Source of the DNA: Porphyrobacter sp.
GTDB lineage: Bacteria; Pseudomonadota; Alphaproteobacteria; Sphingomonadales; Sphingomonadaceae
Assembly (NCBI GenBank): GCA_027533455.1
Contig: JAPZUC010000002.1
Location: forward strand, 248,001 to 312,000
Direction: 5' to 3'
Length of the DNA: 64,000 nt
Both the position numbers and the translations under genes were made by a program. The notes beneath the pieces were generated by a model. That model was not told the origin of the DNA and searched no databases. It worked only from the letters and a program-made list of their open reading frames with translations. Shown here piece after piece: positions 1,748 to 3,767 of the stretch; the first letter of the stretch is position 1; each line of letters begins with the position of its first letter.

Positions 1748-1839
1748 GGGCCGCAGGCCCGCGAGGCCACGCGGCCGAGCTGCAGGTGCTCCGAAGCGAA
1801 GCGAAGGAAACGCACCGGGGACGAAACTGCGGAGGCGGG
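1748..1839 (+). repeat. Left arm of a ~90-bp inverted repeat
   Basis: This stretch contains GCAGGTGCTCCGAAGCGAAG and its surroundings, and recurs in opposite orientation at about 2280-2374. The matching core (about 1765-1820 against 2302-2357) is nearly identical, and the similarity continues on both sides (GCGGAGGCGGG inward, GCAGGC...GAGGCCACGCGG outward). The two arms bracket the small transcript unit with the mini-ORF at 1947-2003. Confidence 0.75.
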
Positions 1840-1841
1840 TT

Positions 1842-1893
1842 CGAAAAGCAAAAATGAAAAGGGCGTTTCCTGCCCGTCGGAGGAAACGCCCTT
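1842..1893 (-). terminator. Strong intrinsic terminator of the mini-ORF transcript
   Basis: The arms AAGGGCGTTTCCT and AGGAAACGCCCTT form a perfect 13-bp stem (1859-1893) with a 9-nt loop. On the minus strand the stem is followed by a T-rich tract (TTTTCATTTTTGCTTTT); on the plus strand there is no such tract. It therefore ends a minus-strand transcript coming from the direction of position 2000 and insulates ilvE from it. Confidence 0.85.
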
Positions 1894-1946
1894 GACATGG
1901 TCAGCGGCCGGAAGTGCCGCTCACGAAGCCTTACTTGGCAAGAGGA

Positions 1947-2003
1947 TTACCGAGTATGCTCCGTAGGGATCTTCACCGACCTCGCTACTGAACCATGAGA
2001 CAT
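1947..2003 (-). CDS. Candidate 18-residue mini-ORF with a perfect Shine-Dalgarno sequence
   Basis: ATG at 2003 opens an 18-codon frame, MSHGSVARSVKIPTEHTR, ended by TAA at 1949-1947. Directly upstream (2019-2005) the minus strand reads GAAAGGAGGTGATCC, the full reverse complement of the 3' end of bacterial 16S rRNA. The AGGAGG core sits 7 nt from the ATG. A small hairpin (AGCGGC/GCCGCT) and then the strong terminator at 1893-1842 follow. A second, longer frame upstream ends with a TGA inside this SD (2010-2008). I do not recognise the peptide. The layout (one extreme SD, a tiny ORF, one strong terminator) suggests a real translated mRNA or a ribosome-binding RNA, but expression is not proven. 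Confidence 0.5.
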   Translation of the reverse strand: MSHGSVARSVKIPTEHTR

Positions 2004-2120
2004 CGGATCACCTCCTTTCGCGCTTGTGAGCCAGACCCGCCGCATCACCGGGGGCCGAGAGCCGCGTTCGCCGCTGGCCTCGGGAAGCAATGTGATTCAT
2101 GGGAAAGCAAAGGACAAGTC

Positions 2121-2148
2121 TTGAATAAATCTTTTCCCACGTCATACT
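2121..2148 (+). promoter_or_regulatory. Possible sigma-70-type promoter for a short plus-strand RNA
   Basis: TTGAAT (2121-2126) and CATACT (2143-2148) are separated by 16 bp, and a clear terminator lies 33-58 bp downstream. The match to consensus is only partial, so this rests mainly on the nearby terminator. Confidence 0.3.
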
Positions 2149-2279: not shown

Positions 2280-2374
2280 ATGCCCGCCTCCGCGGGCACG
2301 TCCTCGGTGCGTTTCCTTCGCTTCGCTTCGGAGCACCTGCGTGGCGGCCGCGTGGCCTTGCAGACCCTGCAGGT
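2280..2374 (-). repeat. Right arm of the ~90-bp inverted repeat
   Basis: This is the reverse-complement partner of 1748-1839. Together the two copies enclose about 440 bp holding the mini-ORF unit and the plus-strand terminator. I see no transposase or clear target-site duplication. The rest of the gap between here and the lipoprotein gene shows nothing else. Confidence 0.75.
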
Positions 2375-2993: not shown

Positions 2994-3767
2994 TTGTCCA
3001 TGCCCGATCATCCTCGCTCCCCAACCGCAAAGCCGCAGAAGCGCCGCGTCGATCAGCTGCTGGTCGAGCGTGGCCTCGCCGAAAGCCGTGCGCGCGCGCA
3101 GGCGCTGGTGATGGCGGGGCTGGTGTTCGCTGGCGAGACCAAGATCGATAAGCCGGGCCACCAGATCGCCGAGGACGCGAGCCTTGATGTACGCGGGCGC
3201 GATCATCCCTGGGTGAGCCGCGGAGGGATCAAGCTGGCGCACGCCATCCAACATTTCGGGCTCGATCCGGCTGGCGCGATCGCGATGGATATCGGATCAT
3301 CCACTGGCGGCTTTACCGATGTGCTGCTGACCCATGGCGCATCCCACGTATTCTGCGTCGACAGCGGGACGAACCAGCTCGCGTGGAGGCTGCGCGAGGA
3401 TGCCCGCGTGACGGTTCTTGAGCAACTCTCGGCCCGGCTGCTGACCGGCGATCACATCGACCGTCCCTGCAACTGGGTGGTGTGCGATGCGAGCTTCATA
3501 AGCCTAGCCAAAGTGCTCGACGTGCCCTTGCAACTTGCGGCGACGCCCTGCCAGCTGGTTGCGCTGATCAAGCCGCAGTTCGAAGTCGGGCGCGAGGAGG
3601 TCGGCAAGGGCGGGGTGGTGCGCGATCCTGCGCTGCATGCCCGCGTGTGCGACGAAGTGCGCGGCTGGATCGAGGGGCTCGGATGGGAGGTGCAGGGCAT
3701 CACCGAGAGCCCGATCACCGGGCCGCAGGGCAATGTCGAATTCCTGATCAGCGCCACACGCGGCTGA
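2994..3767 (+). CDS. tlyA: TlyA-family rRNA 2'-O-methyltransferase
   Basis: An N-terminal S4 RNA-binding domain (RVDQLLVERGLAESRARAQ, about residues 18-36) is followed by an FtsJ-like methyltransferase with the SAM motif DIGSSTGGFTDVLL near residue 100 and KPQFEVGR near 200. TlyA proteins ('hemolysin A' in old annotation) 2'-O-methylate cytidines in 16S and/or 23S rRNA and can affect capreomycin sensitivity. The length of 257 residues fits. An AGGAG at 2983-2987 is well spaced for the TTG at 2994; ATG at 3000 is the alternative start. Confidence 0.92.
   Translation: MSMPDHPRSPTAKPQKRRVDQLLVERGLAESRARAQALVMAGLVFAGETKIDKPGHQIAEDASLDVRGRDHPWVSRGGIKLAHAIQHFGLDPAGAIAMDIGSSTGGFTDVLLTHGASHVFCVDSGTNQLAWRLREDARVTVLEQLSARLLTGDHIDRPCNWVVCDASFISLAKVLDVPLQLAATPCQLVALIKPQFEVGREEVGKGGVVRDPALHARVCDEVRGWIEGLGWEVQGITESPITGPQGNVEFLISATRG

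Follow-up and report, generated by a model that had tools for sequence, protein, structure and literature searches.

A predicted small RNA found across the Alphaproteobacteria joins a 15-nucleotide match to the 16S rRNA tail with a short reading frame of conserved length and free sequence

The minus strand of a 64,000-nucleotide stretch of Porphyrobacter sp. DNA (contig JAPZUC010000002.1, positions 248,001 to 312,000; this whole stretch is hereafter called the window) carries a short element that follows one plan across many alphaproteobacterial orders, namely complementarity to the 16S rRNA tail, followed by a start codon, a frame that varies little in length and freely in sequence, a closing helix and a terminator. 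Because the length of the frame is conserved and the sequence of the encoded peptide is not, the RNA likely works through being translated. We tentatively prefer, without rating it as probable, the explanation that the element is an independent structured mini-mRNA whose function would be the act of translation and not the peptide. If translation is the signal, the element would represent a natural ribosome sensor and an instance of ORF conservation without protein conservation. Its parts, in the direction of the putative transcript, are as follows.

2132 to 2144, minus strand: conserved upstream box TGACGTGGGAAAA of the predicted promoter, recurring with a few changes in the genus alignment
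2115 to 2123, minus strand: CAAGACTTG box, predicted to contain the -35 element, its pattern recurring in other sphingomonad upstream regions
2094 to 2098, minus strand: GAATC, a GANTC (CcrM-type) site near the predicted -10, at a fixed offset from the box
2055 to 2083, minus strand: predicted 5' leader hairpin CCGAG...CTCGG, from the genus alignment and single-sequence folds
2005 to 2019, minus strand: ribosome-binding block GAAAGGAGGTGATCC, complementary to 15 nt of the 16S rRNA tail
1947 to 2003, minus strand: mini-ORF MSHGSVARSVKIPTEHTR, 18 codons from ATG to TAA, with the stop position kept and the amino acids not
1988 to 1997, minus strand: 5' strand CATGGTTCAG of the closing helix, at codons 3-6, pairing with 1904-1896 in the consensus fold
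1922 to 1963, minus strand: hairpin indicated by covariation, with the stop codon within its 5' side
1903 to 1921, minus strand: hairpin AGCGGC...GCCGCT, seen by eye in alignments, its 3' end overlapping the closing helix; absent from the RNAalifold consensus of 57 copies
1896 to 1904, minus strand: 3' strand CTGACCATG of the closing helix, paired in the consensus fold and invariant in 57 aligned copies, which were themselves cut at this motif
1859 to 1893, minus strand: intrinsic terminator read from the sequence, a 13-bp stem and then a T tract to about 1850

The ATG of the mini-ORF lies at 2003-2001 and its TAA at 1949-1947, and in the perfect terminator stem 1893-1881 pairs with 1871-1859, followed by T; the 18-residue ORF with a 13-bp perfect terminator behind it, as described in the initial annotation of this DNA, is thus confirmed in both parts. 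The same annotation placed the block directly before the ATG, which is right as to adjacency and inexact by one base, a G that separates GAAAGGAGGTGATCC from the start codon. A 35-nt inverted repeat, present at 1782-1816 (minus) and 2306-2340 (plus), stands on both sides of the RNA gene and has no further copies in the genome at up to three mismatches. No tRNA or tmRNA was found in the window. An origin of the element as a 16S fragment or pseudogene was rejected, since the short block alone matches and its surroundings are unlike 16S by eye.

The 3' end of the organism's own 16S rRNA gene, read from its own contig, is ...CTGCGGCTGGATCACCTCCTTTCTAAGG, so that all 15 bases of the block pair with it, and the complementarity claimed in the initial annotation holds throughout. 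The paired part of the 16S rRNA begins where its last hairpin stops and reaches almost to the 3' end, with the exact mature 3' end and the border of that hairpin presumed. At no more than one mismatch, GAAAGGAGGTGATCC occurs in 2.88 Mb at the window site and, antisense, in the 16S gene, and nowhere else. The predicted energy of the duplex between the 15-mer and the 16S tail is -26.8 kcal/mol, as against -18.4 kcal/mol for the best of 86 window ORFs of at least 200 aa, which were taken mechanically (six frames, first start); among the 40 best ORFs listed, 36 pair with the 16S tail at -6 to -13 kcal/mol. The impression that the block stands out from the ordinary genes of the window is therefore upheld.

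Conservation in related genomes was one of two checks named beforehand on which the initial annotation could fail, and it did not refute the annotation: among the copies found by BLASTN within the genus, 36 of 37 genomes preserve both block and ATG intact, which makes chance untenable. The annotation's choice of unit, an RNA that contains a mini-ORF and ends in a terminator of its own, likewise proved to be the right one, and the signal is conserved. The remaining genus genome (L038) has neither the block nor most of the mini-ORF but retains the 5' part as well as the 3' hairpins and terminator; either a true deletion or an error of assembly may explain this. The block is also invariant in the 57 aligned sphingomonad copies, for which the search pattern itself contained it. 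A comparison less bound by the pattern comes from 61 model-found loci, of which 6 were scored as lacking the block (one of them, L098, has an intact block outside the stretch searched), 11 were set aside as indels (one, L075, in truth has two substitutions) and 44, including the probably untrue copy L263, were counted. Among these 44 the block is exact in 26, and all 15 pairs, G-U included, are retained in 38; pairing is kept by 16 of the 22 substitutions seen, compared with 7 of the 45 possible ones, and these counts lean towards conservation because the copies are related and the search models contain the block. The commonest substitution, A to G at position 12, accounts for 11 of the 22 and appears in several groups; one genome with this variant (G693) contains an exact copy of the canonical 16S tail, presumably its 16S gene. 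Deletions shorten the full 16S match in eight sphingomonad copies and two others, so the full match is not indispensable everywhere.

With a 319-base stretch as query, BLASTN recovered the element from all 37 genus genomes searched and from none of the 24 that belong to other genera, and the matches in all 37 led us to reject chance or an assembly artefact as its source. The pattern AGGAGGTGATCNNATG is present in 260 of 396 genomes of the order, with none among the genomes listed from families other than the window's own. A search with the model R1, built on 57 copies, was run on 36 genomes picked by hand, and matched 14 of the 30 family genomes without the pattern and none of the 6 from other families. 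The block together with the ATG is seen in twelve of these 14 matches, where in eight the block has lost one base and in four it carries the wobble change GGTGGTCC; both search models (RF01867 and R1) contain the block, and copies without it are under-found by them. Farther afield, the pattern AAAGGAGGTGRTCNNRTG occurs in 58 of 278 genomes of the class, where the reversed pattern gave 0, and a phylum sample has it in 39 of 67 class members, compared with 1 of 182 non-members. Public genomes, when scanned, gave at least 119 stretches; the 80 titles among the matches listed are alphaproteobacterial with the exception of three given as Proteobacteria only and one Gemmatimonadota (L129, a metagenome bin), and the alphaproteobacteria among them include Sphingomonas, Novosphingobium, Paracoccus, Roseovarius, Mesorhizobium, Bradyrhizobium, Methylobacterium, Bosea, Roseococcus and Inquilinus. 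A phage or plasmid origin was set aside after BLASTN at E 1e-5 found no match in either a phage or a plasmid collection, a negative that excludes close copies only, since BLASTN also missed the other genera. One genome of the family (G061) has two copies, at C1:805104-805255 and C1:2921849-2922077, the first (L084) with a Caulobacter-like MSHCH frame and the second with the block AAAGGAGGTGATCCGATG.

The frame that follows the block is conserved in its length. Of 84 diverse copies (below 75% identity), 81 have their first in-frame stop at codon 14-26, a range chosen after seeing those data, as against 16 and 11 of the 84 in the other two frames and a mean of 18.0 and a maximum of 34 in 2000 shuffles. 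The three remaining copies stop at codons 31, 36 and 59, and the last of these (L187) looks like an ordinary gene. For loci L100-L218 the search pattern had fixed the block, the start and a 'TC', and the test uses only the sequence after these. Copies that played no part in choosing the range come from 31 model-found loci, of which 5 lack the block, one (L263, a weak match perhaps inside a protein gene) has the block and no start codon, and 25 have a start; the stop lies at codon 14-26 in 20 of these 25 and at codon 18-30 in all 25, five frames being 27-30 codons long. At below 50% nucleotide identity, in a test restricted to copies with a called terminator, 40 of 42 stops are in range, compared with 7 and 5 in the other frames, and the spread of stop positions is 3.7 codons, compared with 16.8 and 23.0. 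All three stop codons serve (TAA 88, TGA 75 and TAG 32), and the frames start with ATG, GTG or TTG. If ribosomes must cover a set distance, one would expect just this pattern, with the stop retained and the preceding sequence free to drift, and the conserved position of the stop is difficult to account for unless the frame is translated at some time.

These observations bear most directly on the main rival, an unlikely one, in which the RNA would be a trap or reserve for 30S subunits, holding them by the 15-bp duplex with the 16S tail and undergoing no or hardly any translation. Such a trap, which the initial annotation had raised, accounts well for the block, in view of a duplex far stronger than that of any of the 86 longer ORFs and of its retention across the class with changes that mostly keep the pairs. 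It also agrees with the strongest statement against translation that we found in print, the report from ribosome profiling that mostly intergenic ncRNAs of Caulobacter are not translated, although CC2171, the Caulobacter sRNA discussed below, is unnamed in the available part of that source (PMC4117421). A trap does not account for the in-frame stop kept in a narrow range: for a pure trap a stop codon is superfluous, yet its position is conserved by means of three different stop codons, and the model-found copies with a block retain ATG, GTG or TTG, L263 excepted.

A micro-mRNA encoding a functional peptide of 14-30 residues would explain why both start and stop are conserved, but we consider it improbable. 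Selection on the peptide, as expected of a dual-function sRNA, is not seen in the sphingomonads, where pN/pS in frame 0 is 1.71 (over 1520 non-independent pairs) and codon position 2 is the most changed, and the peptide function offered in the initial annotation is not supported there. In the Rhodobacterales the corresponding value of 0.76 lies between those of the other two frames (0.66 and 0.83), and a weak constraint on amino acids is possible. The sphingomonad frame +2, which has no start codon, gives 0.46, below frame 0, and we read this low value as an imprint of RNA structure. Met/Val-Ser at the start of the peptide is almost universal, being partly fixed by the search pattern, and within orders the peptides resemble one another (LERGVGT in Rhodobacterales, KRCHLAG in Bradyrhizobium types), a likeness that RNA structure can also cause; peptides of different orders have little in common beyond the first residues.

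Less probable again is a sponge for regulatory RNAs with anti-Shine-Dalgarno (CCUCC) motifs, comparable to CrfA, which serves SisA-D in Caulobacter. The reported existence of sibling sRNAs with a 10-mer anti-SD signature and of one sponge for them (PMC12559287, available in part) speaks for such a reading, but the 15-nt 16S match of the window RNA includes GATCC and the AAA end, for which CCUCC motifs have no need, and after the block come a start codon and a frame whose length varies little.

The gene downstream of the element in the window, on the same strand, encodes a class IV aminotransferase (ilvE type, 613-1689, minus, PF01063), and a similar cluster, named by eye, provides the nearest long downstream same-strand ORF in 31 of 215 loci. 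A leader peptide attenuating this gene is nevertheless very improbable, since the neighbouring genes differ in other orders so that no downstream gene is conserved in cis, MSHGSVARSVKIPTEHTR lacks any series of Ile, Val or Leu codons that could act as regulatory codons, and the terminator is long and perfect. In the Rhodobacterales the upstream neighbour, judged by eye from the flanking translations, is presumably a queuosine-type transporter. Genes that we take to be ArfB-like or RNase R-like lie near a few copies (L106, L128 and L166, downstream; L118, L123 and L155, downstream), and the SRP RNA adjoins the element in L079 and L082; all of these are tied to the ribosome, and no class-wide arrangement is kept. 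The divergent neighbour in the window (2994-3767, plus) encodes an S4/FtsJ-domain protein, a TlyA-like rRNA methyltransferase. With its strong terminator-like hairpins and varied neighbours, the element looks like an independent transcription unit.

The box predicted to contain the -35 element, in the form CAA[GC]nCTTG, is present in 80 of 91 sphingomonad upstream regions, and in 67 of these 80 boxed loci a GANTC site begins exactly 25 nt from the start of the box, its N being T in 25, C in 24, A in 18 and G in 0. In other groups GANTC shows at most a small excess over shuffles in the tested region. GANTC sites have been reported within 50 bp of 96 cell-cycle-regulated transcription starts in Caulobacter (PMC4287350, in the part available), and the site at the predicted promoter suggests that the sphingomonad RNA may be made at a set point of the cell cycle in a methylation-dependent manner, the distance to the transcription start here being that to a predicted start. 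By eye, the promoter has no likeness to the rrn upstream region of its own genome.

RNAalifold predicts 33 pairs for 57 sphingomonad copies, chosen from 78 unique sphingomonad sequences by removing near-duplicates and long-loop copies by hand; 10 further sphingomonad loci have no CTGACCATG within reach. Under the consensus structure pairing holds in 96.4% of cells. The structure as a whole scores 0.271 for covariation, compared with 0.145 for shuffles, none of which in 500 came as high as the real alignment, and 0.089 at most for slid partners. The pairs changed on both sides number 14 and are all in the hairpin containing the stop codon, where they make up 14 of its 15 pairs. In the closing helix 8 of 10 pairs never vary, and the 57-copy set accordingly gives no support for it. 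Between orders, both sides of this helix differ by eye (CAUGGUUCAG/CUGACCAUG, CAUUGUC/GACAAUG and CGAGA/UCUCG), and in 83 copies the duplex of a copy's own strands is predicted at -10.5 kcal/mol, compared with -7.0 kcal/mol when strands are swapped between lineages, a gain that is large in sphingomonads and VSHC types and nearly nil in Rhodobacterales types (-7.3 vs -6.8). The frame ends a median of 43-74 nt before the called terminator in five named groups; both these medians and the strand swaps rest on lenient terminator calls, some of which are wrong (negative distances). Of 199 copies the lenient finder assigns a hairpin to 195, yet it does so for 99 of 195 shuffled sequences and for 61 of 189 stretches taken at random. 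We accordingly count as evidence for a terminator only the class of strong hairpins (-18 kcal/mol or better) before a T-rich tail, which 147 of 195 copies have, compared with 18 of the 195 shuffled sequences and 17 of the 189 random ones.

Predicted accessibility is mixed. In the sphingomonads the predicted unpaired fraction is no more than moderate for the block, at a mean of 0.42, and is 0.46 for the start. The predicted accessibility of the start is 0.59-0.73 in two groups, 0.08 in Rhodobacterales and 0.01 in Bradyrhizobium types, in the last two of which the start is predicted to be buried; the moderate value of the block and these buried starts speak against the mini-mRNA. Some Rhodobacterales-type copies have 16S-tail-like strands in their 3' part (for example, ACCTCCTT), and in L110, L117, L132, L179, L253 and L265 such a strand stands before the terminator (CATCTCC or ACCTCC; GGATCACCTCC in L179, which is not of Rhodobacterales type). 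These strands could pair with the ribosome-binding block of their own RNA. As a general feature of the family an internal anti-SD was rejected, as the sphingomonads give no signal for it (mean z 0.08); the signal in other groups is weak to moderate (mean z -0.7 to -1.6), in a search region of 115 nt that cuts off part of the Rhodobacterales 3' strand.

Taking these features together with the conserved frame, we propose the following course of events for a mini-mRNA that functions by being translated. The RNA is probably made in this organism, as its homology and the conserved promoter-like region suggest, and its predicted length is roughly 240 nt, from about 2091 to 1850. The block complementary to the 16S tail would capture 30S subunits just before the mini-ORF, and the captured ribosomes would translate the 18-codon frame. 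Their passage would open the closing helix at codons 3-6 and end short of its 3' strand and the terminator; given the distance between the frame end and the terminator, a ribosome would open the 5' strand and the stop-codon hairpin and spare the 3' strand. The 3' strand, once freed or refolded, may then act on a target or on the lifetime of the RNA itself. We further suggest, with more doubt than for the mini-mRNA as such, a regulator common to the class, whose frame would be kept as a track for the ribosome and not as code: a short run of set length would refold or release the RNA and the level of free ribosomes would thereby be read, and in copies of Rhodobacterales type the internal 16S-tail-like strand may compete with the real 16S tail for the block.

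Judged by its sequence, the window element is related, with some divergence, to CC2171, an sRNA family of Caulobacter. Rfam gave no match in the window at the curated bar; at a relaxed threshold RF01867 (CC2171) matches over the full length of its model (1-159) with 45.4 bits, below the curated gathering score of 75 bits, with E 2.4e-8 in a 561-base search and E 2.9e-8 as the sole match in its own genome. Among 289 genomes of the class, 69 match RF01867 at E <= 0.01 and 9 exceed 75 bits, and the matches within a set of 14 named controls are Caulobacter vibrioides (over the bar, the one such in the tool's tally) and Deinobacterium chartae. The two RNAs share, in the same order, the block CGAAAGGAGGUGAUCC, UGUCUCAU, a long-range helix starting at UGUCUCAU and a 3' terminator stem, and they differ in the start (GUG in the consensus, ATG in the window), the inner hairpins and the peptide. 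In the literature passages available, CC2171 is named as an sRNA only, with no function given and the frame and the 16S match unmentioned. A Mesorhizobium homologue annotated as RF01867 is given as a 215-nt RNA-seq product in the available part of PMC5596092. The view in the initial annotation that no system of this form had been described thus falls as regards the block, the helix and the terminator. The RNA family itself is known in Rfam from Caulobacter; the 16S-tail match, the length-conserved frame of free sequence and the extent across the class are what we did not find described in the open-licence literature searched. CcnA of Caulobacter was set aside as a candidate for the same RNA, being located at the replication origin with its action ascribed to a CCCC loop, according to the part of PMC8959179 available.

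Among other known systems, dual-function sRNAs such as rnTrpL of Sinorhizobium (PMC10117765, available in part) and Spot 42 resemble the window RNA in being small RNAs with a short ORF; in those, function lies in the peptide or in the sensing of an amino acid by the frame, whereas the window RNA is without amino-acid constraint in the sphingomonads. The extended Shine-Dalgarno sites reported for Staphylococcus aureus also pair beyond the usual core near a start codon, but, as far as the available part of PMC13009471 describes them, they serve genes generally, and the 15-nt match of the window is found on a terminated RNA with a mini-ORF only. Finally, SisA-D and CrfA, as portrayed in the accessible part of PMC12559287, are likewise small alphaproteobacterial RNAs built around the SD/anti-SD sequence; the window RNA differs from them in bearing the SD strand, together with a start codon, in place of the anti-SD strand, and in its 15-nt match to the 16S tail.
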